From IMG/VR virus record IMGVR_UViG_3300037502_003770, positions 117,643 through 181,642 of that record: 64,000 bases of DNA; one strand, 5' to 3'. Below are positions 6,475 through 62,195 of this stretch, one piece after another. This stretch comes from a virus. The notes beneath the pieces are model-generated. The model ran no database searches, was not told the origin of the DNA, and worked only from the letters and a program-made list of their open reading frames with translations. The first letter of the stretch is position 1. Every line of letters starts with the position of its first letter. Position numbers and translations under genes: made by a program.

Positions 6475-6476
6475 TA

Positions 6477-6791: not shown

Positions 6792-6807
6792 AATGATTAA
6801 ACCCTTT

Positions 6808-6838
6808 AAAACTTATTTCTTTTAGAAATAAGTTTTTT
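6808..6838 (+). terminator. Intrinsic terminator
   Basis: AAAACTTATTTCT / AGAAATAAGTTTT hairpin with a T run; ends the 5048-6791 operon. Confidence 0.85.
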
Positions 6839-6839
6839 C

Positions 6840-7115
6840 TTTTATATAACACCTTTCCGTTTATAGGTAGGAAACCTAACTAAGTCCGTTTAAGTGGTTG
6901 GAGGCTTTGAGGTAGTCCGAAAAAAAGTTCACTTTTTTCAGGTTTTTGAATAGATTATTCAATTTTGAAATTTTGAGTATATGAATCTAAGGTAAGGATA
7001 GTTTCATATAGAGGCTAGATTTTGGCTACATTATGTTAAGTAGAGGGTTAAAAAACCTTAAAAACAGGCTCTTTCTTTAAAAGATTAAAAATTTCTTAAA
7101 GAAAGAGGGTTTTTA
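6840..7115 (+). ncRNA. Candidate structured non-coding RNA with its own terminator
   Basis: No convincing ORF lies between the terminator at 6808 and the one at 7069. The stretch has higher G than its surroundings and a series of hairpins: TAGGT/ACCTA (6864-6878), GAAAAAA/CTTTTTTC (about 6919-6939), TTGAAT/ATTCAA (6946-6962), TATATGAA/TTCATATA (6978-7010), CTAC/GTAG (7027-7044), and a perfect 12-bp terminator stem (7069-7107). AGTCCG occurs twice (about 6883 and 6914). Not recognised as tmRNA, RNase P RNA, 6S RNA or a riboswitch. The strand is inferred from the terminator. Confidence 0.5.
7069..7115 (+). terminator. Strong intrinsic terminator (12-bp stem)
   Basis: CTCTTTCTTTAA pairs perfectly with TTAAAGAAAGAG (7096-7107), followed by GGTTTTTATT. 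Confidence 0.85.
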
Positions 7116-7208
7116 TTAACAAAATAGTAGTAGCAAAGGTAGTATCTATATCAATGAAACAACGGTAGTACGGAGTTTTTCAGAGAGTAAAAAAAGTTTA
7201 AAAAAAGC

Positions 7209-7239
7209 TTGCATACCTCAAAACGATTAACTACCTTTG
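7209..7239 (+). promoter_or_regulatory. Host-type promoter, first of a tandem pair
   Basis: TTGCAT at 7209 and TACCTTTG at 7232-7239, the Bacteroidetes -33/-7 arrangement. A near copy follows about 91 bases downstream. Confidence 0.8.
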
Positions 7240-7299
7240 TAATGTTGAAACAACAAACGGCAGACGGTCTGAAATAGCGAAAAAAATTAATAAAAAAAC

Positions 7300-7330
7300 T
7301 TGCATACCTCAAAAACAATCACTACCTTTG
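7300..7330 (+). promoter_or_regulatory. Host-type promoter, second of a tandem pair
   Basis: TTGCATACCTC element repeated at 7300 with TACCTTTG at 7323-7330. The leader from here to the ATG at 7438 is about 100 bases. Together the two promoters suggest high expression of the ParB-like gene. Confidence 0.8.
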
Positions 7331-7437
7331 TATGGTAGTAATCAAAGTAAGCAAAGCTTAACCATTAATAATAATAAAGCTATTCTTATTGAAAGCTACA
7401 AACAGTATTAACCTTTATAACATTTTAAACAAGTCTT

Positions 7438-24583: not shown

Positions 24584-25800
24584 TAATGAAATTAATTCAC
24601 AAAGGTTATAAATATAGAATCTACCCAAATAAAGAACAAACTGAATTGTTAAATAAACATTTTGGTTCTTGTAGATTTGTATTTAATTATTTCCTTAATT
24701 TAAAAATGAATACCTATAAACAAGAAAAGAAAAATCTAAATAATAATTATCTATCTTCATTATTAACCCTTCTTAAAAAAGAACAGAATTATTCTTGGTT
24801 AAATGAAATTAATTCTCAAAGTTTGCAAGCTTCTTTAAAAAATGTTGACGTTGCTTATGATAGGTTTTTTAAAAAGATAAGTCAATATCCAAAATTTAAA
24901 AGTAAAAATGATAAACAAAGTTTTAAAGTACCACAGTTTTTAACTATTGAAAATGATTTATTATATTTGCCTAAATTTAAGAAAGGAATTAAAATAAATA
25001 TTCATAGAGATTTTAAAGGAAAGATTTTATATGGAACTGTATCAAAAACACCAACAGGTAAATATTATGTATCTATCACTTGTAAACAAGAATATATTCC
25101 TTTTGAAAAGACAGGTTCTATTATAGGAATTGATACTGGTATTAAAGATTTAGCTATCCTTTCAGATAAAACTGTTTATGAAAATAAAAAGGTTTTAAAG
25201 AAGAGGATAAAGAAAATAAAATATAAACAAAGGCAATTAAGTAAGAAAGTAAAAGGTAGCAAGAGTAGGATAAAACAAAGGAATAAACTTGCAATAGAAC
25301 ATGAGAAAGTAGTAAATATTAGAAAAGATTATTTACATAAAGTAAGTACAGAAATTATCAAAAACCACGATATTATATGTATTGAAGACCTTTCAATAAA
25401 AAACATGATGAAGAACCATAAATTAGCGCAAGCATTTTCTGATGCAAGTTTAGGTACATTCTATGATATGTTAGAATATAAAGCTTCTTTTAATGAGAAG
25501 AAAATTATTAAGATAGGAAGATTTTTTGCAAGTAGTAAAACTTGTTCAAAATGTAATTATATTAATGAGGAATTAACATTAAAGGATAGGGAATGGACTT
25601 GCAAAGGTTGTGGCACGTTGCATGATAGAGATTATAATGCAAGTATAAATATTAAAAACGAAGGTTTAAAGATATTATCTGGTTTGGGTTGCAAGTCGGA
25701 TATAAAACAAAAAGTGATGGAGGCGTTTCCGTTAGGAGAGTCAATGAAATCATATATTTAGAAATAAATACAACATGGAGAAAATCCTGATTTTAATATC
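24518..25800 (+). mobile_element. TnpB-only (IS1341-like) element, boundaries approximate
   Basis: The left side abuts array-derived DNA; the right side lies somewhere between the TnpB stop (25761) and the 55-bp repeat at 25840. The 3' part of tnpB is G-richer than its surroundings (25680-25745), consistent with an overlapping omega RNA. Exact ends cannot be set from one sequence. Confidence 0.55.
24586..25761 (+). CDS. tnpB: TnpB, IS200/IS605-type RNA-guided nuclease, 391 aa
   Basis: Full-length TnpB/OrfB: N-terminal KGYKYRIYPNKEQTELLNKH and FGSCRFVFNYFL, RuvC Asp183 in IGIDTGIKDLA, Glu267 in CIEDLSIKNM, zinc ribbon CSKC...CKGC, and Asp349 in HDRDYNAS. All three catalytic acidic residues and four Cys are present, so it should be active. 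No TnpA transposase is nearby. Family knowledge: TnpB is guided by an omega RNA overlapping its 3' end and the element's right end, and cuts next to a short TAM. Its location inside a phage gene array suggests a homing-like or domesticated role, or simple insertion. Confidence 0.95.
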   Translation: MKLIHKGYKYRIYPNKEQTELLNKHFGSCRFVFNYFLNLKMNTYKQEKKNLNNNYLSSLLTLLKKEQNYSWLNEINSQSLQASLKNVDVAYDRFFKKISQYPKFKSKNDKQSFKVPQFLTIENDLLYLPKFKKGIKINIHRDFKGKILYGTVSKTPTGKYYVSITCKQEYIPFEKTGSIIGIDTGIKDLAILSDKTVYENKKVLKKRIKKIKYKQRQLSKKVKGSKSRIKQRNKLAIEHEKVVNIRKDYLHKVSTEIIKNHDIICIEDLSIKNMMKNHKLAQAFSDASLGTFYDMLEYKASFNEKKIIKIGRFFASSKTCSKCNYINEELTLKDREWTCKGCGTLHDRDYNASINIKNEGLKILSGLGCKSDIKQKVMEAFPLGESMKSYI

Positions 25801-39194: not shown

Positions 39195-40703
39195 ATGAGA
39201 GATATTAAGAACATTGATAAGCTGAGTGATAATAATCATAAGATAGATATTTTATCTTTAAATAAATTTTTAATTGAGAGGGGAGATAATTTTTTAGAAA
39301 CTATTATTACAAACAATTATACCTTTATTAAGAGGGAAGATATTACAAAAGAATTTTTTCAATTAAATTATAAAAAGATTTTTCATGGTGAAAGTATTGA
39401 TGATTTGGATTTTCTTGGTAAAGATTTTCCTATTGAGTGGTATAATGTGGATATTTTTAAATATATTCTTGATACATATTTTATTTTATTTCCAGCTTTT
39501 AAAACAATAAAATTATTTCCAAAGGAGATATTCTATATTTATAATTATTGCGAATTATTTATTAAATATAATACAGTATTTTTAGAATATATACCAAAAG
39601 ATATTGAGAATTATTATGAACTTGTTAAACAAGCTTTTATCAAATATGATGAGATAATATGGAAAAATTGGTTTCCAAAGGAATATATTCCTCAATTAAG
39701 AAAAGACTTTCCTGATAATTTAACTGTTAAAGCTTATATTCAATTAAAAAATTTATCAGAAAATAAAAATTCTTTATTAAGGGAAGATTATCGTTATGTA
39801 TTAACTAATAGTGATGTATATCTTACTAAGAAGATAGAAGCTGTAAGTGATAAAAATAAGTTTGATGCTATTGCTTTTGATAAGTATTTACTTTCTTTTG
39901 GAAATAATGATTTACACAAGATATTATTTAATAAAAGGTATATTATTCCTAGTAAGGAGAGATTTCAAAAAAATTACATGAATATTTTAAGAAAGAATAA
40001 TACTGTTAAAAATATTCATGGTTATGATGATGAGAAATATGGTTATTTAAGTTCTTTAATACCTAAAGAGTATTATACTAAAGAAATGGTAGATAAGATA
40101 GTTGAACATTTTGGTTTATTTACTGTGGTAAAAAAGAGTCTAATAAATCAAAATGTTGATGGGTTTGCTAATTTGGTTAAGGAGTATATTACGAATAGGG
40201 CTGTTTATTCAATACTTGCCAACATTAATCCTTATATTGAGGGTTATTATGATTTATTTAAATATGCAATTGAGAAAAATCCTTTTTCGATTAAATATTT
40301 AAATACTGAATTTGATAGGTATGAAGAGCTTGCTTTATTTGCTGTTTCTATTAGTGCTGGTGTCTTATTTTATATACCAGAATATAAAAGAAGTTATTAT
40401 GTTTGTTTAAAAGCTGTTTCTGAAAATGGTTTTTTAATAAAAAGAGTACCAGAAGATGTTGAAAACTATTATTCTTTAGTAAAAGTTGCTTATTTACAGA
40501 ATAAAGATAGTATTAATGAAATTAATTTAAATCCTTATTATATTGATATGTTAAAAAAGGATTTTCCTGAAGACGAGGAGCTTCAAAAAAAGAAAGGTTT
40601 TGATGATGTATTTGATGACCCTTATAATTTTCTTAAAGAACATATTTCAAAACAGGTAAGAAAGTTATTAAAAGAAGCTATTTATAAGAAAGGAAATTTT
40701 TAA
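39195..40703 (+). CDS. Two-module DUF4116-like protein with LLKE tags, 502 aa
   Basis: Each module starts with the signature (D)K-x-S-D-x-x-x-K-[IF]-D...SLNKFLIERGDNFLE and continues with YFLCxxA-type helix pairs (for example YYVCLKAVSENGFLIKRVPED, DUF4116-like). The modules are separated by NSLLRED (LLRE 194-197), and the protein ends EHISKQVRKLLKEAIYKKGNF (LLKE 491-494). Known: DUF4116 is a helical repeat of unknown function in bacteria and large viruses. Inference: a virion or capsid-internal protein with protease sites at the tags. First gene of the late module; overlaps the next by one base. Confidence 0.8.
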   Translation: MRDIKNIDKLSDNNHKIDILSLNKFLIERGDNFLETIITNNYTFIKREDITKEFFQLNYKKIFHGESIDDLDFLGKDFPIEWYNVDIFKYILDTYFILFPAFKTIKLFPKEIFYIYNYCELFIKYNTVFLEYIPKDIENYYELVKQAFIKYDEIIWKNWFPKEYIPQLRKDFPDNLTVKAYIQLKNLSENKNSLLREDYRYVLTNSDVYLTKKIEAVSDKNKFDAIAFDKYLLSFGNNDLHKILFNKRYIIPSKERFQKNYMNILRKNNTVKNIHGYDDEKYGYLSSLIPKEYYTKEMVDKIVEHFGLFTVVKKSLINQNVDGFANLVKEYITNRAVYSILANINPYIEGYYDLFKYAIEKNPFSIKYLNTEFDRYEELALFAVSISAGVLFYIPEYKRSYYVCLKAVSENGFLIKRVPEDVENYYSLVKVAYLQNKDSINEINLNPYYIDMLKKDFPEDEELQKKKGFDDVFDDPYNFLKEHISKQVRKLLKEAIYKKGNF

Positions 40704-41302
40704 TGAAGAATTTTAATAAATTAAATGATACTAAACATGAGATAGATTTAATTTCTTTAAGTGATTTTTTACTTGAGAAGGATGATGATTATTTAGATAA
40801 GTTTATAAAAAAAGAATTTAAAAAACCTGAAGATATAACAGAGACATATCTTAAATTATGGTATAAGTATATATTTAATATAGATAGTTATTTTGGTGTA
40901 TCATACACTGAGTTTGATTTTACTGGTGATGATTTTCCTATTGAGTGGTATATGGATGCAAAATTTTTAGATACTTTATTTGAAGAATCTGGTATTAAGT
41001 TTTTAATGTGTGTACCAAAAGTATTAAGATATGATTATGAAGTTTGTGAACGTTCTATTAATAAAAACCCTATTTCTTTAAAGTATGTCCCAAAAGATAT
41101 TGAGAATTATTATGGTTTAGTAAAGCTTGCTTTTAAGAAAAAACAAAATTTAATTGGACAAAAATGGTTTCCAAAGGAATATATTCCTCAATTAAAGAAT
41201 GATTTGGATGATGAATTATCTCAACATTATTTAAATCTTCAGGAGCATATTTCAAAAGAAGTGAGGAAACTTTTAAAAGAATACTATTTAAAGAAAATAT
41301 AG
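40703..41302 (+). CDS. Single-module DUF4116-like protein with C-terminal LLKE tag, 199 aa
   Basis: Starts NFNKLNDTKHEIDLISLSDFLLEKDDDYLD; the segment IENYYGLVKLAFKKK...WFPKEYIPQLKND is shared with 39195 and 59559. Ends EHISKEVRKLLKEYYLKKI (LLKE 190-193). Nearest relative is the first module of 39195 (GDDFPIEWY in both), so a local duplication. Confidence 0.8.
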   Translation: MKNFNKLNDTKHEIDLISLSDFLLEKDDDYLDKFIKKEFKKPEDITETYLKLWYKYIFNIDSYFGVSYTEFDFTGDDFPIEWYMDAKFLDTLFEESGIKFLMCVPKVLRYDYEVCERSINKNPISLKYVPKDIENYYGLVKLAFKKKQNLIGQKWFPKEYIPQLKNDLDDELSQHYLNLQEHISKEVRKLLKEYYLKKI

Positions 41303-41306
41303 TTAG

Positions 41307-42869
41307 ATGGGATTAGTGTATAATAATAAGAGGATTAAAAAAGATATAAGTGATATTCACAATATTGATATTATTTCTTTAAATAAATTTCTTCTTGATA
41401 AGGGTGATAAATTTTTTGGAAAGTTATTATATTACAATTGGTGTTTACTTCCTGATAAGGAGACTTTTCAAAAGAATTGGATGTATTATATTGAAAAGTA
41501 CGATAAATACAATGAAGATGGTTTTGGTAAAAAATCAAATTTAATACCAAAAGAATATTATACAAAAGAGATAATTAATTCTATATTAAAAACTGATTTT
41601 GATAGTAATCATAGTTTTACTTTAATTAATCAATATGCTGATGGTTTTGCTGAAAGTGTTAAGGGTTATTTATTAGATAGAGTTATGTATACAAATTTGT
41701 TATATTTTATTAAATCTGATATACCTGGTTATTTTGAGTTATGTAAATCTTTAATAAAAAAGAACCCATCATATATTGACTATGTACCTAAGACTTATGA
41801 TAATCAAAAATTAGTTGAGCTTTGTGCGTTAGCTGTTTCTATTGATGGTATGATTTTAAGATATGTTAGAGATAAAATTGATTTATTTTCAAATCCAAAT
41901 GTTATATATACGGCAATTAAAAATAATACAATAGCTTTAAGATTTGTACCTACTAGTATAGAAAATTATTATTCTTTTCTTAAAACAGCTTATACATTAA
42001 ATAAAAGAATAATTTCAATAGATAGTGCAAAAGAATATCTTGATGATTTAAAAAGAGATTTTCCTGAAGATATAGATTTTATTGAGAAGCGAATTAATCT
42101 TCAAGAAAATAAATCTTTATTAAAGGAAGAGAATTTTAATGAGGAGTCTTTTGTTTTTACTTCAGATAGACATAAGATAGATATTAAATCTTTAAGCAAT
42201 TTCTTAATTGAGAAGGGTGACAGGGTTTTAGATACATTATTATATGCTCGTGGTTATAAGGAAATAGATTATTATTCAGATTTTTTTAGGGAAGAGATTA
42301 TAAAATATGTTAATTCTGATATTATTAAAAAGATTCCAAAAGAATTGTGGGATGATTATTCTTTTTGTTTAACAGTTTCTTCAAGAAATGGTTATTATGC
42401 AATTGATTTTATTAATGAAGATTTTTTAAATGATTATAATATTGTAAAAAATCTTTTAACTCAACAAGGTGAATTAATAAATAAAGTTAATCCTGATATT
42501 TTGGATGAGAAATTAATTAGATTAGCGAATAAAACAAATACTAGTGGAAAAGATTTAACTGATACTTGTTATTTTTGGGAACATTATGATGGGAGGTATG
42601 AATTATTAAAGAAAATTATTTCTGTATACCCTGATAAAATAAGGTTTATTAGACCTAGTGATAGTAGATTTGCTGTTGATAAAAAATATTATGAATTATT
42701 AAAAATAGCTTACTTAAAGAATAAGAATATTTTAAGATATAAAGATATTAAATACAAGTATACACCTTATTATGAAAAATTAAAAAATGAGTTTGGTATT
42801 AAATTTTATTTAAAAGAGTATATTTCAAAACAGGTAAGAAAGTTATTAAAAGAAAAAATCTCCTTATAA
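41307..42869 (+). CDS. Two-module DUF4116-like protein with LLKE tags, 520 aa
   Basis: Module 1 (SDIHNIDIISLNKFLLDKGD) ends with LQENKSLLKEEN (LLKE 271-274); module 2 (SDRHKIDIKSLSNFLIEKGD) ends EYISKQVRKLLKEKISL (513-516). ALAVSIDGMILRYVRDK and SFCLTVSSRNGYYAIDFINED are DUF4116-like helices. Its stop lies inside the bidirectional terminator shared with the convergent 42864 gene. Confidence 0.8.
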   Translation: MGLVYNNKRIKKDISDIHNIDIISLNKFLLDKGDKFFGKLLYYNWCLLPDKETFQKNWMYYIEKYDKYNEDGFGKKSNLIPKEYYTKEIINSILKTDFDSNHSFTLINQYADGFAESVKGYLLDRVMYTNLLYFIKSDIPGYFELCKSLIKKNPSYIDYVPKTYDNQKLVELCALAVSIDGMILRYVRDKIDLFSNPNVIYTAIKNNTIALRFVPTSIENYYSFLKTAYTLNKRIISIDSAKEYLDDLKRDFPEDIDFIEKRINLQENKSLLKEENFNEESFVFTSDRHKIDIKSLSNFLIEKGDRVLDTLLYARGYKEIDYYSDFFREEIIKYVNSDIIKKIPKELWDDYSFCLTVSSRNGYYAIDFINEDFLNDYNIVKNLLTQQGELINKVNPDILDEKLIRLANKTNTSGKDLTDTCYFWEHYDGRYELLKKIISVYPDKIRFIRPSDSRFAVDKKYYELLKIAYLKNKNILRYKDIKYKYTPYYEKLKNEFGIKFYLKEYISKQVRKLLKEKISL

Positions 42870-42878
42870 AAGGAGATT
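42857..42878. terminator. Bidirectional terminator between convergent genes
   Basis: AATCTCCTT / AAGGAGATT with a 4-base loop; A run on the left and T run on the right, so it can end both transcripts. The two genes' last codons overlap within it. Confidence 0.8.
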
Positions 42879-43523
42879 AATTTTTATTTGTTTAATTTCT
42901 TCTTTAAGAATTTTCTTTACTTGTTTTTGTATATATTCTTCAAGATAATTTCTATCGATTTTATTTGGATTAACAATATTTAGTTTAATATTTCTTTGAT
43001 TACAAAGGTTTTGTAGTTCATCTATAATTTCTTGAGGGTCACGATAATCCACATCCTCATAATAATTATCTACTTTTTTTATATCTATTTGAATAATGTA
43101 TTTTGAAAAATTTTCAATTCTATCTTTATTTGATAAAATCCTATCTTCATACTCAAAATTCCTATCATCTTTATTAGCAAATTTAAAATGGTTAAATGGT
43201 TGACCTTTATAAGTTTGTGAAAGTTTTCTACCATCTAATTTTAATCTAACAATAAAATCTAAATCATATAATTCTTTTTCATTCCAATCATTATTTAATT
43301 TATAAAAACCAGTTTTTGATGATTTAGTTCTACTTAGTGATAAATAATTATATCCATTTATATAATCATCATCTTCACCATATTTTAAATAAAAAATATC
43401 ATCTTTTAAAATACTTATAATACTACTTAACGTTGTAAAATGATATACTTCATCAGTTACAGATTCTTTTAATAAACTCTTTACTTGTTTTTGTATATAT
43501 TCTTTTAATAATTGATTTTCCAT
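42864..43523 (-). CDS. Stand-alone ART-like protein with tags at both ends, 219 aa
   Basis: N-terminus LLKEYIQKQVKSLLKES (LLKE 5-8 and 17-20), then the domain TDEVYHFTTLSSIISIL...YLSLSRTKSSKTGF...IVRLKLDGRKLSQTYKGQPFN...FEYEDRILSN...YIIQIDI, then a C-terminal copy EEYIQKQVKKILKEE (ILKE 205-208). The H in YHFT, the S-L-S-R-T strand and the E of EYEDR resemble the H-Y/S-E plan of ADP-ribosyltransferase folds (DarT-like YHIT). Three copies of this domain occur in the next gene. Activity not proven; could be an unrelated small fold. Confidence 0.7.
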   Translation of the reverse strand: MENQLLKEYIQKQVKSLLKESVTDEVYHFTTLSSIISILKDDIFYLKYGEDDDYINGYNYLSLSRTKSSKTGFYKLNNDWNEKELYDLDFIVRLKLDGRKLSQTYKGQPFNHFKFANKDDRNFEYEDRILSNKDRIENFSKYIIQIDIKKVDNYYEDVDYRDPQEIIDELQNLCNQRNIKLNIVNPNKIDRNYLEEYIQKQVKKILKEEIKQIKINLLL

Positions 43524-43548: not shown

Positions 43549-43594
43549 GGTTTTATTTTAAAATTACTATTTAAGAAAAAGATGATTATTTTTA

Positions 43595-46500
43595 ATGAAA
43601 GATATTAATGTAATAAATGATAATAATAAGATAGATTTAAGTTCTTTGAATAAATTTCTTATTAGTAAAGGTGATGAGTATTTAGAATATTTATTAATTA
43701 GTAATGTTTATAATAAAAATATTACAGAAGACAAAATTAGAGAATATGTTTTAAAAGGTTATAATATTAAAGAAGAATTATTAAAGTTTGTTACAAAAGA
43801 TAAAGAATTATATTCATATATTAGTTTAATGAATAAAGTACTTGAAGAAATATATAAAGAAAATTCAAGCGAAGAAGATACTGAGTTTTATATATTACCT
43901 TTAGATTTTATTAAAAGTAATAAATATTTTTCAATAGATAAATTTTTTAGTGTATATGGTGGGTATGCTATTAGATTTATACCATATGAATTACAAACAA
44001 AAGAATTATGGGAATTTTCAGCTTTAAAATCACCTTATTTTATAAGTGATGATAGTTTTCCTCAAGAGTATAAAAGTTATAATTTATTTTTAAAATTAAT
44101 TGAGATTGAATCATCTCTTATTTATGATGCAGCTGATAGTAATATTTTTAATAAAGATGAGATTTATAATTTATTCGAGTTTACATACAAAAAATATATT
44201 AAAGAAAATAATGTATCTGAATTTTGGAAAACACATAGATATAACCCATTAGATTTTAAAGATATATATCTTAAATTAGCAAGTAATTTTAAACATGAAT
44301 CATATTTAAAAAAATATGGGATTCCTGATATTCATGATGTACCTAGATTTGCATTTAATGAAAGTAAGTCTTTATTAAAAGAAGAAACTTTATTGGATAA
44401 ATTTAAATTAATGGATGAAAATAAGATTGATTTATTTTCTTTAAATAAATTTCTTCTTTCAAAAGAAGATAATTTATTAGAATATTTATTATTAGAGAAT
44501 AATTTAATTTTTGGTTTAGATGAAAATAAAATTAGAAACTTTATATTAAAAGGTTATAAACCGTTAGAAACATTTCCTAATAATATAAAAATTGATATGG
44601 ATTTAAAGGAGTATGTTAATGTATTATTAACTTTTGAATCTATTAAATATATTCCTAATGAGAAATATACTGTTTCGTATGCTAAATTAAAAGATAATAA
44701 ATATATTTCAATAGAAGGTCTTTTAAAATATAATTCTTTATTTATTAGGTATATCCCTGAAAATTTATTAACACAAGAAATATGTAATAATGTATATAAT
44801 AAAAATTACAGAATTTTTAGAGAAATTCCAAATAGGTTTAAAACATATGAAATGTGTGAAAATGTTATAGGTAAAAACGCATATTTTTTTGTTTATTTAC
44901 CTGACCCTTTGGATAATGGTACTTTAATTACGGTTCAGGAATGTTATAAATTATTAAAACTTGCTCATACTTATTATATTGATAAAGATAAATTTTCAAA
45001 TGGTGTTGAACAATTTTGGAGTGATGCTATTGTTTCAAAATTAGATAGAGATTATTTTGTTAGATTAATGTATGAAGTAAATGCACAAGAATATGTAGGA
45101 AAATACGGTCAGGGTGGTATTAAGAAAAATAATAATCTTCAAGAAAGTAACTCTTTATTAAAGGAAGAAGAATTCTTTAATGTAGAACAACTAGAATATG
45201 ATTCAGATAAAAATAAAATAGATTTACAAGAATTAAGTGAATTTTTATATAATAACGGAGATGATTATTTAGAATATTTATTAGCCAATAAAGAATATAT
45301 TAAAGTTGATAGTAAAAATGTTTTTAGATTATATAAAAATAAAAATTTTAAAGATGTAACTGAATTTTTAAATATTGGTTATGATTTTTTAAATGTAATA
45401 TTAACTGACCCTATTGAAAAAAACAAAATAGAACAATTTTATTTAAAAAACCGATACCCTCATGATTATCCAGATATTTTATGGGAAAGTCGTGCATTTT
45501 GTGAGGCTGCTTTAATTAAACAAAAGAGTTGTTTATATAAAGTACCACTTAAATTTAGAGATTATAAAATGTGTAAGCTTGCTGTTAGTTTTGATGGTGA
45601 TAATATAAAAAGTGTACCTGAAAATATTGAGAATTATTATTCTCTTTGTGAAATGGCTGTTTCTCAAAGGGCTTGGTCTTTGATGTTAATTGATAAGAAT
45701 AAATGGGATTATAATTTATATGAAAAAGCTGTTTCTCAGAATGGTGGTGTTTTATTTTATATACCTGAAAAATATAGAGACTATAATTTATGTGAAAAAG
45801 CTGTATCTAGTGAACCTAGTTCAATATATGATGTACCTAAAAATATTGAGAATTACTATTCTTTAATAAAACTTGCTTACTCAAAGGATAAAACAGTTAT
45901 ATTAGATATGAATTTACCAAAAGAGTATTTTGATAAATTAAAAAATGATTTTCCTAAAGACTTTAATCTTCAAGAAAGTAAGTCTTTGTTAAAGGAAGGA
46001 ATTACTGATGAGGTATATCATTTTACAACATATCAATCAGCTGCTGAAATATTACAATATAATAGATTTAAATTTTCTATTGAGACTGAAGGTGATTCTT
46101 TATCAAGGATGAATAATTACAAAAATTATATGTCTGTAAGTAGGACTAAGTCTTTAAATAAAGGTTTTTTTAATACAATAAAGAATGGTGTTAATTTAGT
46201 TATTAGATTTAAACTTGATGGTAGAAAATTAGCTCAAAAATATAAAGGTATTCCATTTAATTATTTCCCTGCTTGGGGTAAAGAAAATTATGCTTTTGAA
46301 TATGAGGATAGATTGCTTTCAAATGATGAATATATTGAAAATTTTTCAAAATATCTTTTATCTGTAGATATTATTGATTTAACTATTGGAAATAATATAA
46401 ATAAAACAAAAATCCATACAATAAAAGAATTATCTCAAAAATTAAATCTTGTTTGCAATGTTTATAAACATGATGATAATAATATTGTAAGAAAACAATT

Positions 46501-48574
46501 TCAATCCGACCCGATTAATTTTATTAAAAATAAAGGAACTTTTGTTTTAAATGATTCTTTTTTTACAAAAGAAATTGTTGATGAAATATATAATCATTTT
46601 AAAGAAAATATTTATACATATATTCGTTTATCTCAAATACCAGCTGAATTTAGAAATTATGAGCTTTGTGAATTATATATAAAAAAGAACCCTATTAATA
46701 TTATAGGAGTACCTTCACCAAATAATACTTTAATAAAAAACAATTTAATATCAAGAGAAGAATATATGTCTTTGGTAAGGATAGCTTTTTCTTTAGATAA
46801 AAATATAATAGATTATATCCCAGATGAATTTGAGAAAATATTAAGAGATGAAATTAATAAAGCAAGTAATAATAATCTTCAAGAAAGTAAATCTTTATTA
46901 AAGGAAGGTATTACTGATGAGGTGTATCATTTTACAAGTTTAGAAAATTTTATTAAAATAATGAATACAAATACATTTAGATTTTCAGATTTATTATATG
47001 ATTTAAGTGATGTTATTCATAATACACCTTTAAAAAAATATAAATATTATATGTCTTTAAGTAGGACTGGTTCAATAAAAACAGGTTATGGTAACTATCA
47101 AAGTGATAATAGTAATTTTATTGTTAGATTAAAAATAGATGGTAGAAAACTTTCGCAAAGTTATAAAGGTCAACCAATAAATTATCATAATTATGGTAGA
47201 AAACAAAAATCTAGTAAAAAAACTAGTTTTAGATTTGAATATGAGGATAGAATATTATCCAATAAACCAACTATTGAGAATTTTTCAAATTATGTTTTAA
47301 GTGTTGATATTATTAAAATTACTAATTCATCTAATAATTTTTTATTAGATGATGATATGAAATCATTAGAATATATATTAAAAAATAAAGAAAATTATAA
47401 CGCACCAATAAATTTCACAAATGAAAAAAATTCACCTCTTAATGAAAATAAATCTTTATTAAAGGAAGGTATTACTGATGAGGTGTATCATTTTACAAGT
47501 TTAGAGAATTTAATTAGAATATTAAAAAGTAATTCTTTAAATTTAAGTTTTATGGATAATGATATTAATCAGACTTGGAATAGGAAAGATAGCAATATAC
47601 ATAAAACTTTAAATAAATATATGTATTTTTTATCATTAAGTAGAACAAAGAGTATTGATAAAGGTTATGCTCAAGTATTAAAATCACAAAATATACCTGT
47701 CATTACCAGAATTAAACTTGATGGTAGAAAACTTTCTTTTAATAATAAAATTATACCTTTTGATTATAATCAAACTATTAGCCGAAATGTTAATAAAAAT
47801 GATAAATATTTTGAATACGAAGATAGATTAGTTAGTGATAAATCTTCAATTAAAAATATAAATAATTATATTTTAGAGATTGATATTTTTATGTATTATA
47901 ATTATGATTTTCAAAAAGATAGTTTTTTATTCTTAAAAGAATATCAAAATACCACAAATATACCGATAAAAGTTTTTAATAAAGTAAAAAATAATTCTTT
48001 AAATGAAAGTAAATTATTATTAAAGGAAGATTATACAGAGGAAGAAGTTTTAGAAGAAATAAGTGATAAAAATAAAATAGATTTAATTTCTTTAAATAAA
48101 TTTCTAAAAGAAAATAATGATGATTATTTAGAATATTTATTATTTTATAATGATTTTTTAAATATAGAAAGAAATATTATAAAAATAGTAAAAAATAAAT
48201 ACATTACAGGTTTTGGTAGTTTCCCAATAAAATATTTATATCAACCAAAAGTAATAAGAGAAATAGTATTAAGAAATCCTGAATTATTAGAAAGATTGAA
48301 TTTATATTACTTAGAAAGAATGGAAGATAGTAAACAGGAAATGAAAGATATTTACAAATACGCTGTAATAAATAAACCAAATATGTTATCACGTATACCA
48401 ACTAATCTACCTTATTATGATGAACTGCTTGAGGTGATGTTTCAAAAAGATAGAGGTAACTTATTTGATTTATTAATTATTCAACCAAAATCTATTCAAC
48501 AAAGTAATATGTTAAATAAAGTAATATCTTTTTTACAAAATAAAGGTTATACTTTAGGAAAAAATCCTTCTTAA
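43595..48574 (+). CDS. Seven-segment polyprotein with DUF4116-like and ART-like modules, 1659 aa
   Basis: Six LLKE linkers, at residues 260-263, 521-524, 798-801, 1101-1104, 1288-1291 and 1475-1478, usually inside LQESKSLLKE, divide it into segments of 263, 261, 277, 303, 187, 187 and 181 residues. Segments 1-3 and 7 begin with the DKNKIDLxSLNKFL signature (DUF4116-like helices clear in segment 3). Segments 4, 5 and 6 begin ITDEVYHFT and carry SLSRT (SVSRT in segment 4), LDGRKL (IDGRKL in segment 5) and FEYEDR, as in 42864; segment 4 adds DUF4116-like helices. Inference: an injected internal protein cut at L-K-E by a prohead protease. Confidence 0.85.
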   Translation: MKDINVINDNNKIDLSSLNKFLISKGDEYLEYLLISNVYNKNITEDKIREYVLKGYNIKEELLKFVTKDKELYSYISLMNKVLEEIYKENSSEEDTEFYILPLDFIKSNKYFSIDKFFSVYGGYAIRFIPYELQTKELWEFSALKSPYFISDDSFPQEYKSYNLFLKLIEIESSLIYDAADSNIFNKDEIYNLFEFTYKKYIKENNVSEFWKTHRYNPLDFKDIYLKLASNFKHESYLKKYGIPDIHDVPRFAFNESKSLLKEETLLDKFKLMDENKIDLFSLNKFLLSKEDNLLEYLLLENNLIFGLDENKIRNFILKGYKPLETFPNNIKIDMDLKEYVNVLLTFESIKYIPNEKYTVSYAKLKDNKYISIEGLLKYNSLFIRYIPENLLTQEICNNVYNKNYRIFREIPNRFKTYEMCENVIGKNAYFFVYLPDPLDNGTLITVQECYKLLKLAHTYYIDKDKFSNGVEQFWSDAIVSKLDRDYFVRLMYEVNAQEYVGKYGQGGIKKNNNLQESNSLLKEEEFFNVEQLEYDSDKNKIDLQELSEFLYNNGDDYLEYLLANKEYIKVDSKNVFRLYKNKNFKDVTEFLNIGYDFLNVILTDPIEKNKIEQFYLKNRYPHDYPDILWESRAFCEAALIKQKSCLYKVPLKFRDYKMCKLAVSFDGDNIKSVPENIENYYSLCEMAVSQRAWSLMLIDKNKWDYNLYEKAVSQNGGVLFYIPEKYRDYNLCEKAVSSEPSSIYDVPKNIENYYSLIKLAYSKDKTVILDMNLPKEYFDKLKNDFPKDFNLQESKSLLKEGITDEVYHFTTYQSAAEILQYNRFKFSIETEGDSLSRMNNYKNYMSVSRTKSLNKGFFNTIKNGVNLVIRFKLDGRKLAQKYKGIPFNYFPAWGKENYAFEYEDRLLSNDEYIENFSKYLLSVDIIDLTIGNNINKTKIHTIKELSQKLNLVCNVYKHDDNNIVRKQFQSDPINFIKNKGTFVLNDSFFTKEIVDEIYNHFKENIYTYIRLSQIPAEFRNYELCELYIKKNPINIIGVPSPNNTLIKNNLISREEYMSLVRIAFSLDKNIIDYIPDEFEKILRDEINKASNNNLQESKSLLKEGITDEVYHFTSLENFIKIMNTNTFRFSDLLYDLSDVIHNTPLKKYKYYMSLSRTGSIKTGYGNYQSDNSNFIVRLKIDGRKLSQSYKGQPINYHNYGRKQKSSKKTSFRFEYEDRILSNKPTIENFSNYVLSVDIIKITNSSNNFLLDDDMKSLEYILKNKENYNAPINFTNEKNSPLNENKSLLKEGITDEVYHFTSLENLIRILKSNSLNLSFMDNDINQTWNRKDSNIHKTLNKYMYFLSLSRTKSIDKGYAQVLKSQNIPVITRIKLDGRKLSFNNKIIPFDYNQTISRNVNKNDKYFEYEDRLVSDKSSIKNINNYILEIDIFMYYNYDFQKDSFLFLKEYQNTTNIPIKVFNKVKNNSLNESKLLLKEDYTEEEVLEEISDKNKIDLISLNKFLKENNDDYLEYLLFYNDFLNIERNIIKIVKNKYITGFGSFPIKYLYQPKVIREIVLRNPELLERLNLYYLERMEDSKQEMKDIYKYAVINKPNMLSRIPTNLPYYDELLEVMFQKDRGNLFDLLIIQPKSIQQSNMLNKVISFLQNKGYTLGKNPS
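45964..46024 (+). repeat. Linker-to-domain DNA repeat, copy 1
   Basis: Encodes NLQESKSLLKEGITDEVYHF; near-identical DNA at 46874-46935 and, slightly shorter, 47441-47500. The DNA similarity exceeds that of the flanking modules. Confidence 0.7.
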
Positions 48575-51769: not shown

Positions 51770-52569
51770 TATTCAGGTTTATTAATATTATTTTTGATAC
51801 TAAATAATTCTTGGTTATTAACACTATATTTATTAATAATTGAAGTTGGTGCTTTCACTATTTGGAAATCTGATTTCTTAATAAGATAACCTCTTAAAAC
51901 AACTTTAAATACTTTTACATAATATCTTTTTCCTTCAAGGTCATTTAATGTTCCATCGGAACTAACATCTTCAAGATTTAAAGGCATGTAATGACCGTTT
52001 ACATTAATATATAATTGTCTTTCATTAAACTTATTTAAATAAAGTTCAACCATTTCATTTACATCGGTTATAAAAGCTGATATTAATCTTATTTCATATT
52101 CAATATCTATTGGAGTTGGTTGAGTTATTTTATAATGAATATATGTTAACATATCATTTTCAATAACAGGCATTTTATAATAACTAAAAGCTTTTTTATT
52201 AGGAATATTAAATTTCTCTCCGTAGATAGTTCCTTTAAGAATATTGGTTCTTTCCATTGTTATAAATGGAGGAACAAGGTTTTTATTATCATCTTGCAAG
52301 TGCCAAGTTTTTTGAAATTCACCCCATCTTTCATTATTCATAAAAATTGTATCAACTTTAACTCTTTCATCATTTTCACTAAGAATTGATAATGATAAAT
52401 CACCTTCATTTGTACAATTAAATACAGCAATATCCAAATCGGCAATATCAATACTTTGAGGTAAAAAAGTAGAGTTTTCATCTGTTTGATTTAACAGTTC
52501 TTCAACACGAACAATTCCAACATTTGTAGGGTATGTATTTCTTAAAGAAGTTTTTTTAGGTAGAGCCAT
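51769..52569 (-). CDS. Virion structural protein, 266 aa
   Basis: VPPFITMERTNILKGTIYG, YYKMPVIENDMLTYIHYKITQPTPIDIEYEIRLIS (a strand pair), FNERQLYINVNGHYMPLNLEDVSSDGTLNDLEGKRYYVKVFKVVLRGYLI: arrangement seen in tail/neck structural proteins of large phages. No enzyme motif. Start overlaps the 52556 stop by 14 bases. Structural role is inferred from pattern and position among virion genes. Confidence 0.7.
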   Translation of the reverse strand: MALPKKTSLRNTYPTNVGIVRVEELLNQTDENSTFLPQSIDIADLDIAVFNCTNEGDLSLSILSENDERVKVDTIFMNNERWGEFQKTWHLQDDNKNLVPPFITMERTNILKGTIYGEKFNIPNKKAFSYYKMPVIENDMLTYIHYKITQPTPIDIEYEIRLISAFITDVNEMVELYLNKFNERQLYINVNGHYMPLNLEDVSSDGTLNDLEGKRYYVKVFKVVLRGYLIKKSDFQIVKAPTSIINKYSVNNQELFSIKNNINKPE

Positions 52570-53323
52570 TTACTTTTCTTTTAAATAGTAATTCTTTTAA
52601 AAGTTTTTTTACCTCTCTTGAAATATATTCTCTTAAATTAAACTTCTCTTTTATTTGTTTTAATATCAAAGGGTCTTCTATATAGTAAATAAGGGTTTTA
52701 TCATTAGAAACAACTATTTCCCAAAGGTGAAAATCTTGTAAATGTTTAGGTACATGAAATATTGAATCAGAAAAACTTAAAACAGCTTTTTCACAAAGAG
52801 AGTAATCTATAATTTTTTTAGATACATATGGTAAACAACCATATTGAGACGTAACAGCTTTTTCACAAAGAGAGTAATAATTTTCAATATTATCAGGTAC
52901 AAATTGTAAAGCTGTGCCATCTTGAGAAATAGCTTTCTCGCAAAGAGAATAATCTCTTAATTCTTCTGGCACAAATTCTAAAGCTGTTCCATTTGTAAAA
53001 ACAGCTTTCTCACAAATAGAATAATCTCTTAAATGTTTAGATACAAATTCTAAAATCCAACCATTTTTAGAAACAGCTTTTTCACGAAAAGAATATATAT
53101 TCCATAATTCTTTTGGTATACGTTTAATATCATCTTCTTCATTGCTGTATATTATACTTATATAATAATTTAGTAATCTTTTATTAGAAAGGTTTTTTTC
53201 TTTAAAACCATTTACTTGCAATAATATATCTATTAAATCATCTCCTTTCTCAAGTAAAAAATTATTTAAAGAAAGTAAATCTATTTTATGTTTATCACTT
53301 ATATTTTCTAACTTATTATTCAT
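52556..53323 (-). CDS. DUF4116 repeat protein with C-terminal LLKE tag, 255 aa
   Basis: Starts NISDKHKIDLLSLNNFLLEKGDDLID, then at least five DUF4116 repeats of the form DYSLCEKAVSxNGxALxFVPExL (residues about 75-215). Ends LREYISREVKKLLKELLFKR (LLKE 241-244). Clearest DUF4116 member of the window. First gene of the minus-strand run, divergent from 53384. Confidence 0.85.
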   Translation of the reverse strand: MNNKLENISDKHKIDLLSLNNFLLEKGDDLIDILLQVNGFKEKNLSNKRLLNYYISIIYSNEEDDIKRIPKELWNIYSFREKAVSKNGWILEFVSKHLRDYSICEKAVFTNGTALEFVPEELRDYSLCEKAISQDGTALQFVPDNIENYYSLCEKAVTSQYGCLPYVSKKIIDYSLCEKAVLSFSDSIFHVPKHLQDFHLWEIVVSNDKTLIYYIEDPLILKQIKEKFNLREYISREVKKLLKELLFKRKVNGST

Positions 53324-57846: not shown

Positions 57847-58776
57847 ATGGATTTATTTTTTGATAAACAAACATTATTGGATAGAGAAACTAGTAATCCT
57901 ACTAGTTCAAACCCTACTGGTCTTAGAAGTACTAAGACTATACATAAGGGTATTGTTGTTAGTGTAGATGATAGTGAGAATGGTAAAAGAATTAAAGTTC
58001 GTTTAACTGGTTTTGATGATGGCGTTACTGATGAAAATTTACCTTATTGTTATCCTTTACTTCCTTTTAATATTACAATTACACCAACAGAAAAGAGTAT
58101 TGTAAGAGTAATTATTTCTGATATTTCAGCTCCTTATCAAGATAGATTATATATTTCAGAAGTTATTTCACAATTTCAAAATTTAAATGGTCAACCGTTT
58201 TTTATTGATACTAAAAATAAATATAGTGAAGAAGCTTTATTTAATCAAAATAAAAATCAACCAATAAAAAATATACCAACAGTAGGTGATTTATACCCTA
58301 AAAATAAAAAAGAATTATTAGATACAATTTCATTTAATAGTAAAAACGGTAAAACCGATTTATTATTAAATGAAAACTATTATTCTTTAAGGACAAATAA
58401 ATTTAAAGTAAGTAATACTGAAAAGAATTTAACTAACCCTTGTTATATAAACGGTTTTTTAGAACCAAAGAAAAATGTTAACTATAATATAATTAATTCT
58501 GATAAGATATTTTTACTTTCAAATAAAACCAATCTTAATTATAATAAGAATTTAATAGAAAGTAAAGACTCTCAAGAAATAGATAATTTATTAAAACAAG
58601 TTCATAATGTTGGTTATGGTGATACCATTGCAGAGTTTTTAGATTTATTTAGAAAGGCTTTTACAAACCACGTTCATTCTTATGATGGTAAAGAACCAAT
58701 TAATAGTGATTTTATTAAAAAATTAAATGAATTTGATTTATCAAGAATATTCTCAAAAGATATACATATTAATTAA
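57847..58776 (+). CDS. Baseplate spike/hub protein (gp5/VgrG OB-fold-like), 309 aa
   Basis: HKGIVVSVDDSENGKRIKVR then LTGFDDG...LPYCYPLLPFNITITPTEKSIVRVI resembles the OB domain of gp5/VgrG-type spikes. C-terminal half contains FRKAFTNHVHSYDGKEPIN, a H-x-H segment like those seen near the tip or end of baseplate proteins. Likely punctures or organises the centre of the baseplate. Confidence 0.65.
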   Translation: MDLFFDKQTLLDRETSNPTSSNPTGLRSTKTIHKGIVVSVDDSENGKRIKVRLTGFDDGVTDENLPYCYPLLPFNITITPTEKSIVRVIISDISAPYQDRLYISEVISQFQNLNGQPFFIDTKNKYSEEALFNQNKNQPIKNIPTVGDLYPKNKKELLDTISFNSKNGKTDLLLNENYYSLRTNKFKVSNTEKNLTNPCYINGFLEPKKNVNYNIINSDKIFLLSNKTNLNYNKNLIESKDSQEIDNLLKQVHNVGYGDTIAEFLDLFRKAFTNHVHSYDGKEPINSDFIKKLNEFDLSRIFSKDIHIN

Positions 58777-58813: not shown

Positions 58814-59569
58814 ATGATTAATTTAGGTATTATAAAAACAAATCTGAGTAGAGTTGTAGCTGAGAATCTATTATCTGAAAATAAAGATATTAATAAAGTT
58901 GATTTATATAAAAATTTTTTAAATATTCTTAAAACATCAGATATTCTTATGTTGGAATATAATATATTTAAAAATTTTGAACAAAAGAATCATTCTATTG
59001 AATCAGCTTATAATTTAATATCTGAAAATTTAAGACCGATAAAGTCTTTTACAAAGAAAGAAATTATTAATGAGAATAAAAAAATAAAAGATTTTAATTT
59101 AAAAAATAATCTTTCTCAAAAAGAAAACACTTTTTATAATGCTATTCATAATTTAATTATGGAATCAACAGCTAAATATCCTGATATTAATCTTTTACAT
59201 GAATCACATGAAATTATATTAAATTCTTTACTTGAAAAAAAATCTCTTATTAAAGAAGAAAGACAAATTAATAAAGTAAATAATGCTGTTATAAATTTGG
59301 CTACTAAAAAAATTAATGAAGAGATAGGTAAATTCTCTTCTAAAGAAAAAGATATATTGCAAACTTTATCTAAAGGAACTTTTAATGATAAAGTAATGTT
59401 GCTTGAAAATATTAAAGGTGAGTGTAAGATATTAATAGAAGATTCTAAATCTTTAATAGAAGATTATGTTTATGAAAATACTATTAATAAAATAAATAAT
59501 ATTGATGCAACGCCTGAAACTATAAATGAATCAATACTTGATTTATATTCTTTGTTAAGTGATGAATAA
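58814..59569 (+). CDS. Helical virion-module protein, 251 aa
   Basis: Entirely helical and charged; residues 139-147 LLEKKSLIKEE contain an IKE site like the other tags. SLLSDE at the end overlaps the next start (59559). Looks like a scaffold or core protein, but no family is recognised. Confidence 0.6.
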   Translation: MINLGIIKTNLSRVVAENLLSENKDINKVDLYKNFLNILKTSDILMLEYNIFKNFEQKNHSIESAYNLISENLRPIKSFTKKEIINENKKIKDFNLKNNLSQKENTFYNAIHNLIMESTAKYPDINLLHESHEIILNSLLEKKSLIKEERQINKVNNAVINLATKKINEEIGKFSSKEKDILQTLSKGTFNDKVMLLENIKGECKILIEDSKSLIEDYVYENTINKINNIDATPETINESILDLYSLLSDE

Positions 59570-60365
59570 ATTAAAAGTAATTAATGATAATAATCAAATA
59601 GATTTACTTTCTTTAAGTAATTTTTTATTAAGAAAAAAAGATGATTATCTTGAAGCTTTATTAAAAATAAATGGTTATAAAAAATTAATTATTGATTATA
59701 ATAGTGATTTCTTTTTTGATAGAATTTTACCATACGGAGAATCAAAATATTTTAATGTAAATATAATACCAGACCAATATTGGTATAATTATGATTTTTG
59801 TATGAGAGCCATTTCGTCTAATGGCTGTGGTTATTTATTATCTTATGTACCGAAAGAATTAAGAGATTATAAACTTTGTAAGAAAGCTGTATCTGATAAA
59901 AATAGTGCTGGTATTATTTTAGGTTTTGTTCCAAAAAAATTAAGAGATTATTCTCTTTGTGAAATAGCTGTTTATAGTGATTGGATGAATTTAGAATATG
60001 TACCAGAAAATTTAATAGATTCTTCTTTATGTGAAATAGCTATCACTCAAAATGGTTATTCTTTAAAATTTGTACCGAAAGAATTAAGAGATTATTCTCT
60101 TTGTGAGAAAGCTGTTAATAATAATGCTTTCGCTTTACAGTTTGTTCCTAAAAATATTGAAAATTATTATTCTTTACTAAAAATAGGTTTTAAACAATAC
60201 GATTCAGCTTTAGTTAGTAATGAATGGTTTCCAATAAACTATATTCCTCAATTAATCAAAGATTTTCCACAATATAAAGAATCACTTGAATCGTATCTTC
60301 TTCAAGAATATATTAAAAAAGAAGTAAAGAAATTATTAAGGGAGTACTATTTAAAAGAAAAATAG
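59559..60365 (+). CDS. DUF4116 repeat protein with C-terminal LLRE tag, 268 aa
   Basis: NDNNQIDLLSLSNFLLRKKDDYLE start; four to five DUF4116 repeats (YVPKELRDYKLCKKAVSD, FVPKKLRDYSLCEIAVYS, FVPKELRDYSLCEKAVNN); then IENYYSLLKIGFKQYD and WFPINYIPQLIKDFP as in 39195. Ends EYIKKEVKKLLREYYLKEK (LLRE 259-262). Overlaps 58814 by 11 bases. Confidence 0.85.
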   Translation: MMNKLKVINDNNQIDLLSLSNFLLRKKDDYLEALLKINGYKKLIIDYNSDFFFDRILPYGESKYFNVNIIPDQYWYNYDFCMRAISSNGCGYLLSYVPKELRDYKLCKKAVSDKNSAGIILGFVPKKLRDYSLCEIAVYSDWMNLEYVPENLIDSSLCEIAITQNGYSLKFVPKELRDYSLCEKAVNNNAFALQFVPKNIENYYSLLKIGFKQYDSALVSNEWFPINYIPQLIKDFPQYKESLESYLLQEYIKKEVKKLLREYYLKEK

Positions 60366-60366
60366 T

Positions 60367-61608
60367 ATGTCGTTTTTCAATTGTAACCTTGATGAAATCA
60401 ATAAATATAAGATAGTAGATATTGATATATCAGATAATAAATCATGGAATTTAAATACTGGTTTAACTATTAATTCATTAAAAAAATATAATGATGCAAT
60501 AACATCTACTTTTGAATTACCTACTTATGGATTAACAGCGTTTGATTATGGTTTAGTTAATTCATTAACAGCAACAACTACCATCAATTATACAGATAAT
60601 AAATTAAAATTACAAAGAGTAGGAGAAAATGATTTTACTGGTAATACAAGTTATACTGGGTATAGTATTACACCTGTAACAACAGCTACTACTGTAGGGA
60701 ATTATTTTCTTTTAGAAGGAGGATATTTTACAGGGTTTTATAAACTTCATGATTATGAATATGAAATATTACCTTATAGATATAACGAAGGTTTAACTAT
60801 TTCAACATGGATTAATGTACAATCAGGTATTACTTTTGAAAATATTTTATCTGAAAAAGATGGTTTCTTTTTTTATATGGGTGCTTTAGCTGAGAATAAA
60901 TATTCATTAGCTTATTCAGGTGATACAATATATTCTTCTTTTACTGGAACAAATATCACAAAAAATGTAGATTTATCAGGAAATACAACAGGTTTAACAA
61001 ATATTTTTTTAAATGACCATACTGATTTAGAATCAGGTATTACTAAAAATATAATAGCTTTTAGAATAAATCAAAATAAACAGATAGGTTATAGATTTTT
61101 AGATTATACTGGAAATACAATAGAAAATTATTCTGATAAAGAAATTTCTTATGGATGGAATAATATTACAATAACATTTAAACCAAAAGAATTAATTAAA
61201 GATAAAGATTTATTAAATTGTTATAAAGATAGGGATATGGTATTGACAATTTATTTAAATGGGATTATTATTTATGAAGAAATAGATTTTAAAGAAATAT
61301 GGTTTAAAGAAATGTTTACTGAAAGAGAAAAACAATTACATATACCATATGTTATTAATTGGGGTGGAGGTAGTTTTGGTTTAAAACATTCTTGGCATTT
61401 CAATAATTCATTAAATGAGTTTATTCAAGATGAAAGAAAAAAAGATTTATTAATTGAGAAAAATTTTGATGGTTCTTTTTATGGTGGTATTCAAAAATTG
61501 GAATTATATAATAAAGCGTTAAATTTTATTGAGGTAAGAAAAATTATTGAATATTATTCAAAATATAATATAAATAATTTTAAAGGCGGAAGATTGATTA
61601 ATATATAA
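60367..61608 (+). CDS. Structural protein with LamG/ConA-like fold, 413 aa
   Basis: LEGGYFTGFYKLHDYEYEILPYRYNEGLTISTWINVQSG (about 118-156) is the first strand pair of a jelly-roll LamG domain; VLTIYLNGIIIYEE and FDGSFYGGIQKLELYNKALNFIEVRKI (near the end) close it, as in LamG_3 proteins. Probably a tail fibre, decoration or adsorption-related protein binding glycans. Flanked by two tag-bearing DUF4116-type genes. Confidence 0.7.
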   Translation: MSFFNCNLDEINKYKIVDIDISDNKSWNLNTGLTINSLKKYNDAITSTFELPTYGLTAFDYGLVNSLTATTTINYTDNKLKLQRVGENDFTGNTSYTGYSITPVTTATTVGNYFLLEGGYFTGFYKLHDYEYEILPYRYNEGLTISTWINVQSGITFENILSEKDGFFFYMGALAENKYSLAYSGDTIYSSFTGTNITKNVDLSGNTTGLTNIFLNDHTDLESGITKNIIAFRINQNKQIGYRFLDYTGNTIENYSDKEISYGWNNITITFKPKELIKDKDLLNCYKDRDMVLTIYLNGIIIYEEIDFKEIWFKEMFTEREKQLHIPYVINWGGGSFGLKHSWHFNNSLNEFIQDERKKDLLIEKNFDGSFYGGIQKLELYNKALNFIEVRKIIEYYSKYNINNFKGGRLINI

Positions 61609-62195
61609 TGAAGAATATTGATAAGGTTAGTGATAGAAATCAAATAGATTTACTTTCTTTAAATAAATTCTTTATTGAGAAAGGGGATGATGAATTAGAA
61701 TATTTATTATGGAATAATCAACTTATAGATACTAATTATTCAAATGAACGTATACAAAATTATATTATAAAAAGATTTCAACCTAATGAAATAAAGAATG
61801 AGTTTTATTTATCATATAAATTTTGTGAAAAAATAGTTACTAAAGATGGTATGGCTTTAATGTATGTACCCGAACATTTAAAAGATTATAATCTTTGTGA
61901 GAAAGCTGTTAATAATGAACCATATGCTATACATTTTATACCAAAAACAATAGAAAATTACTATGAATTAGTAAAAATTGTTTTTAAATTAGCAGTTAAA
62001 TGGAAATTAAAAGAGTCTGAAATTTTTAAATATATATCAAGAGATGATTTAATACAATTAAAAAAAGATTTTCCAGAACATATAGATTTTTTTGATGAGC
62101 TTAACTTAAAAGAATATATTTCCAAAGAAGTAAGAAAATTATTAAAAGAACAAATTTTTAAAAATAAAAACTATTTAATTAAAAATATAAAATAA
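61608..62195 (+). CDS. Short DUF4116-like protein with C-terminal LLKE tag, 195 aa
   Basis: KVSDRNQIDLLSLNKFFIEKGDDELE start, two DUF4116-like repeats (FCEKIVTKDGMALMYVPEHLKDYNLCEKAVNNEPYAIHFIP), end EYISKEVRKLLKEQIFKNKN (LLKE 178-181). Stop overlaps the next ATG. Confidence 0.8.
   Translation: MKNIDKVSDRNQIDLLSLNKFFIEKGDDELEYLLWNNQLIDTNYSNERIQNYIIKRFQPNEIKNEFYLSYKFCEKIVTKDGMALMYVPEHLKDYNLCEKAVNNEPYAIHFIPKTIENYYELVKIVFKLAVKWKLKESEIFKYISRDDLIQLKKDFPEHIDFFDELNLKEYISKEVRKLLKEQIFKNKNYLIKNIK

Follow-up and report, generated by a model that had tools for sequence, protein, structure and literature searches.

The window analysed here, a stretch of 64,000 nucleotides, corresponds to positions 117643-181642 of a viral record of 312,694 bases (G000), the genome of a T4-like jumbo phage (312.7 kb) in which portal and large terminase genes were also found. 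At 43595-48574 on the plus strand lies an open reading frame (ORF) whose translation is free of stops over 1659 residues, and which six LLKE linkers (LLKE ending at residues 263, 524, 801, 1104, 1291 and 1478) divide into seven segments of 263, 261, 277, 303, 187, 187 and 181 residues. The segments open with one of two signatures, NKIDLxxLxxFL in segments 1, 2, 3 and 7 and GITDEVYHFT in segments 4, 5 and 6; the corresponding modules are named D and A. The intact frame, the linkers and both signatures had been described in an earlier note on this DNA and were recovered here, the segment lengths matching exactly. The features are as follows:

43567-43573, plus strand: CTATTTA, putative late-promoter-like element, 28 nt upstream of the polyprotein start codon
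43595-48574, plus strand: polyprotein gene, 1659 aa, D1-tag-D2-tag-D3-tag-A1(+D fragment)-tag-A2-tag-A3-tag-D4
43595-44383, plus strand: segment 1, D module
44354-44383, plus strand: linker 1, FNESKSLLKE
44384-45166, plus strand: segment 2, D module
45137-45166, plus strand: linker 2, LQESNSLLKE
45167-45997, plus strand: segment 3, D module with DUF4116 repeats (Pfam E 2.9e-8), predicted helical solenoid
45968-45997, plus strand: linker 3, LQESKSLLKE, connecting two folded modules at pLDDT <50 in the AF2 prediction
45998-46906, plus strand: segment 4, module of predicted ADP-ribosyltransferase (ART) fold plus D-like fragment
46877-46906, plus strand: linker 4, LQESKSLLKE
46907-47467, plus strand: segment 5, module of predicted ART fold (modelled)
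47438-47467, plus strand: linker 5, LNENKSLLKE
47468-48028, plus strand: segment 6, module of predicted ART fold
47999-48028, plus strand: linker 6, LNESKLLLKE
48029-48571, plus strand: segment 7, D module without C-terminal tag

The D modules share a layout in which an IDL-type N-terminal signature is followed by DUF4116 repeats (PF13475; cut-off 24.9 bits), scoring 33.6 bits in the polyprotein and 81.2 and 76.4 bits in stand-alone D proteins; comparison of the D module with solved structures yielded no clear relative. Segment 4 is a composite of an A module and a D-like fragment (profile match at G000 164192-164554, E 5.8e-8). A match of the polyprotein to PF21318 (BRCA2 OB2) scored under its cut-off and was discarded. 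A D-profile search combined with direct reading gave 15 D/A-family ORFs and about 20 D modules in the genome. Its stand-alone D proteins carry a C-terminal tag, xEYISKEVRKLLKE, a few residues from the stop codon, and linker 3 occupies the columns of this tag when segment 3 is aligned with them. Besides the polyprotein, four ORFs of the genome link two modules via an internal tag, so that the polyprotein is the extreme case of a local module-joining habit. The relatives bearing on this comparison are:

39195-40703, plus strand: two-module D chain, internal tag ENKNSLLRE, C-terminal tag HISKQVRKLLKE
40703-41302, plus strand: stand-alone D protein, C-terminal tag HISKEVRKLLKE
41307-42869, plus strand: two-module D chain, internal tag LQENKSLLKE, C-terminal tag YISKQVRKLLKE
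42864-43523, minus strand: stand-alone A module, 219 aa, N-terminal tag MENQLLKEYIQKQVKSLLKE, C-terminal tag EEYIQKQVKKILKE
52556-53323, minus strand: stand-alone D protein, DUF4116 E 3.8e-23, C-terminal tag YISREVKKLLKE
59559-60365, plus strand: stand-alone D protein, DUF4116 E 1.2e-21, C-terminal tag YIKKEVKKLLRE
61608-62195, plus strand: stand-alone D protein, C-terminal tag YISKEVRKLLKE, alignable with the linker
G000 6449-7915: two-module chain with internal tag
G000 192127-193398 (L009:12127-13398): nucleotidyltransferase-like domain, internal LKE tag, D module

A separate gene for a similar nucleotidyltransferase was seen at L021:8521-9378.

The six LLKE occurrences compare with a mean of 0.17 and a maximum of 3 in composition shuffles of the polyprotein (n = 5000), and a second L-x-E (LQE or LNE) lies seven residues upstream in five of the six linkers, linker 1 having FNE. 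At the DNA level, linkers 2-5 are 83-97% identical among themselves, whereas the A modules reach only 57-65%. The repetition within the ORF is therefore partly attributable to recent duplication or gene conversion, and it was rejected as stand-alone proof of function. The polyprotein holds 40 [LI]xE sites against 25 expected, some of them inside modules; the motif alone thus cannot confine cutting to the linkers, and exposure or context would have to do so. In an AF2 model of D3-linker-A1, a helical solenoid (pLDDT about 95 over most repeats) is joined to an ART fold through residues 266-276, the LQESKSLLKE stretch, at pLDDT <50 with a shallow alignment underlying it; the linker is predicted to form an exposed, low-confidence joint between two folded modules.

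The genome contains four A copies, namely segments 4, 5 and 6 and the stand-alone protein at 42864-43523. Among PDB entries, the AF2 model of the A module (pTM 0.75) matched DarT first (probability 0.99, E 2e-3, TM about 0.5), then KptA/Tpt1 and other ART folds, a level of similarity that indicates fold class rather than close kinship; matches in BFVD comprised many uncharacterized phage proteins (E down to 1e-13). No ART model rose above its cut-off in a Pfam search of the polyprotein. Six residues (H22, T24, S64, R67, E125 and E127), putatively NAD-binding or catalytic, are invariant in 12 A homologs. Judged from the structural model, the A module is very probably an ADP-ribosyltransferase-fold enzyme; the assignment of this fold to three polyprotein segments, like the two-module ORFs above, was absent from the earlier note. 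The chain might instead be scaffold-like and belong to the prohead core, as do gp67/gp68 of T4, its cut fragments leaving the head and its modules not being delivered effectors. About 20 modules in 15 D/A-family ORFs, together with a late-type promoter (below), would suit a core protein, but the modules have predicted folds, and a discarded scaffold would have no need of the putative active-site H, S/R and E conserved in all A copies. We regard a scaffold role as distinctly unlikely.

The earlier note had suggested looking for a gp21-like protease outside the window, and a Peptidase_S77 ORF was indeed found at G000 199874-200542 (Pfam E 1.7e-28; PHROG head maturation protease E 8e-48), about 34 kb downstream of the polyprotein and ~3 kb upstream of the capsid gene, whose product belongs to the T4 gp23 family of major capsid proteins (PHROG E 1.6e-66). 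The protease is 35% identical to T4 gp21 and keeps the motifs GE-x-x-HP and SSRGLGS, the catalytic His and Ser motifs of S77 peptidases. In all 81 clade capsid proteins considered (this phage plus 80 matches, 44-51% identical; 55 sites located by pattern and 26 by eye), [LI]xE followed by A or S precedes the mature capsid region, at the position of the T4 gp23 maturation site; it reads LINE/A in most members and MLNE/S in this phage, the slash here and below marking the border after the motif. The N-terminus of the protease itself has the form [IL][LV][IV]E/xDAG in nearly all relatives and reads LLKE/SDAG here, identical to the linker motif. T4 gp24 and IPIII are cut at MAKINELLRE/S and MKTYQEFIAE/A, respectively, and both starts are close to the linker form. 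The proposal that the linkers fit the form of a prohead-protease substrate is supported in part, in that they match the tags ending the stand-alone relatives, which resemble T4 capsid-targeting/cleavage sequences.

The A module stands as a gene of its own, with a short N-terminal L-x-E tag, in phages of Alishewanella, Microcystis and Vibrio and in several uncultured T4-like phages; examples are MKIEQLYESILEE/GISPIVYHST, MIKLKSLLQE/IISDRVWHLT, MKKFNEFANELAE/AVNDTVYHGT, MTKLKILLEQVLKE/RITDKVYHIT and MLLIDLFE/SVSSIVYHST. The tags at A modules are mostly N-terminal and 5-20 residues long. Across 28 A modules from T4-like phages or contig fragments, including the four of this phage, [L/I/V]-x-E has its Glu exactly eight residues before a conserved His in every case, with L or I at P3 in 27 and V in one. 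Loci L024-L027 had been retrieved with patterns that could contain the tag; without them, 25 of 25 are still in register. An additional A relative beyond the 28, MIKLKNIVESILKE/RISDIVYHAT, also fits. By contrast, the tag is present in none of eight A modules from phages without an S77 match (Dickeya JA33, Pseudomonas Lu11, HRDY3 and Salmonella Sen-NF). Counted by record, it occurs in 11 of 11 with an S77 match versus 0 of 4 without (Fisher p 7e-4, kinship between records uncorrected); short fragments without an S77 match were excluded from this count. One uncultured-contig ORF, L022:6995-8092, combines an N-terminal tag, a cut-short A module, the tag LIREILKE and an ART-PolyVal domain (Pfam E 2.8e-14), and is the only relative elsewhere in which an N-terminal and an internal tag were seen together. 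This cross-phage evidence is independent of linker repetition within the ORF. As far as sequence can tell, the linkers are the counterparts of the tags on stand-alone relatives, in T4 capsid-targeting/cleavage form. They probably double as capsid-targeting signals, a point that the earlier note did not contain.

The linkers might be no more than spacers left behind when genes fused in tandem, with no part in processing; the 83-97% DNA identity of linkers 2-5 fits a recent duplication. Yet distant phages whose tags otherwise differ preserve the L-x-E register, the phages without S77 lack it, and the linkers are far more alike than the modules they join, which renders a fusion remnant very improbable. 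More improbable still is a role late in infection within the cell that makes the protein, or a role in the tail, instead of one inside the head: a nearby gene (57847-58776) has a weak baseplate-hub match, but the N-terminal tags on stand-alone relatives are of T4 internal-protein type and co-occur with the head protease. The tags could also target the capsid and stay uncut, functioning solely as repeats that bind the core; the 1659-aa chain would then enter the head whole and leave it as a single polyvalent protein. Targeting and processing are separable in T4 IPIII, the former depending mainly on residues 4 and 7 and the latter on residues 8 and 10, and an Asp at position 10 stops cutting but not packaging (PMC9026906); the virion RNA polymerase of N4 is packaged as an unprocessed multidomain protein (PMC5512222). 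However, in the A modules it is the processing residues that are conserved (P1 Glu and mostly L/I at P3, 28 of 28), whereas upstream tag residues vary between phages, and we consider an uncut chain unlikely.

Several further observations concern tags in other contexts. In Alishewanella phages, the tag MKIxxLYESLLxE is common to a row of unrelated neighbouring proteins. At L016, L022, L024 and L042, small genes stand in rows that share an N-terminal L-x-E tag while their bodies are unrelated (ART-PolyVal, GNAT acetyltransferase and others); these rows are probable injected-effector islands. The A modules of Lu11 and HRDY3 (L039 and L040), which lack S77, share another start, MKIQLAVA or MEMMLALA, which may be a targeting signal belonging to some other prohead protease; those of Dickeya JA33 and Salmonella Sen-NF have no shared start. 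In the present genome, generic N-terminal [LI][LIV][KR]E tags occur in 22 genes outside the D/A families versus 7.8 expected from shuffles. A looser N-terminal tag is only modestly commoner in late genes (7 of 50) than in others (30 of 377), and generic N-terminal tags were for this reason dropped as evidence. The region 10699-34300 is densely packed with about 50 small ORFs (80-150 aa) on one strand, several of which open with a similar IKEIIxLI-type helix; they are possibly a paralogous family.

The CTATTTA element upstream of the polyprotein recurs throughout the genome. It is found ≤45 nt upstream of the start in 61 of 442 genes (4.2 expected), usually at a spacing of 20-30 nt, and the 61 sites in the 312.7-kb record give a consensus of about TACTATTTAWAANAAA. 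All six annotated virion or lysis genes (capsid, portal, protease, sheath, baseplate-wedge and endolysin) carry it, as opposed to none of eight early or metabolic genes (including annotated ribonucleotide reductase, helicase, exonuclease, glycosyltransferase and endonuclease), and it lies directly upstream of 11 of the 15 D/A-family ORFs. CTATTTA is the probable late promoter of this phage, unlike the TATAAATA of T4, a search for which was uninformative in this AT-rich genome (41 of 442 genes, many not late). ORFs that by eye resemble TnpB/OrfB were noted at 24586-25761 and at G000 69747-71072, 76259-77581, 86891-88219, 216501-217736 and 299232-300485; three of these ORFs start almost identically and share the same upstream element.

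Neither D relatives nor a second seven-part chain emerged when the whole protein and D modules were searched against viral contigs, bacterial genomes and named phages, and both the D and the A family were absent from the searched records of the phages with the closest capsid proteins; the seven-part polyprotein therefore looks like a lineage-specific expansion, as judged from these records. No match came from scanning GTDB genomes with the A profile, nor from a degenerate DNA pattern that combined the tag with GITDEVYHFT.

We think it fairly probable that the gene encodes a capsid-targeted effector polyprotein which the prohead protease would cut into its modules. Packaging, cutting and ejection we infer from the correspondence of tags, protease, fold and promoter; activity and targets, too, we infer. 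The chain would be synthesized late and enter the prohead core through one or more of its tags, which, as equivalents of the T4 capsid-targeting sequence, would hold it there. The activated gp21-type protease would then cut after L-K-E in the exposed linkers, with a second cut after the upstream L-Q/N-E being probable. Cleavage would release about seven folded D and A proteins of 20-35 kDa, kept in the head and later ejected with the DNA, whereupon the A modules might act on host molecules as T4 Alt does. The seven modules are probable injected host-takeover proteins. With somewhat more reserve, we also favour a general reading, that of a tailed-phage polyprotein strategy in which effectors are injected in fixed ratio and the linkers serve both as packaging signals and as head-protease sites.

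The capsid-targeting sequences known from T4 are single N-terminal signals. If internal, repeated tags work, an effector set can be packed as one chain and split by the head protease, and it could grow by tandem duplication, needing no new promoters or tags. Because tag and S77 protease occur together, the L/I-x-E border in phages with S77 also offers a simple sequence rule for finding injected effectors in the very large T4-like clade, many of them probably anti-defence or host-takeover proteins. A design for delivery is suggested as well, with a single fusion loading several cargos.

No phage chain with internal capsid-targeting tags was reported in the literature searched, which covered few subscription papers and does not establish priority. 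Among the closest precedents is SPN3US, in which long propeptides are cleaved at multiple places (PMC10052503). The polyvalent proteins that Iyer et al. (2017) describe from phages and plasmids are large, multidomain, contain ART domains and are thought to be packaged and injected, and some are self-processed by built-in peptidases (PMC5512222). The present protein is likewise a large multidomain phage protein with predicted ART-fold domains, but it has two module types only, and its cutting would fall to a separate prohead protease; no peptidase family appeared among the Pfam and PHROG matches in the chain. T4 Alt, an injected ADP-ribosyltransferase, undergoes gp21 processing at both ends (PMC9026906). 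The A modules are comparable in their predicted fold and in having prohead-protease-type sites at one or both ends (both in 42864-43523), whereas they lack detectable sequence kinship with Alt, have DarT/KptA as nearest folds and include three tandem-fused copies; with the Alt family absent among Pfam and PHROG matches, A is Alt-like only in its proposed way of working. With IPI, IPII, IPIII and gp24 of T4, the system has in common a short [L/I]xE tag, an S77 protease, putative late expression (here judged by promoter) and diverse cargo following a single conserved tag, but the tags here are internal and separate seven modules, and the D proteins are tagged C-terminally. The stand-alone A genes of Alishewanella, Vibrio, Microcystis and uncultured T4-like phages encode a homologous module with the identical L-x-E register, and differ in having one module per gene and the tag at the N-terminus.
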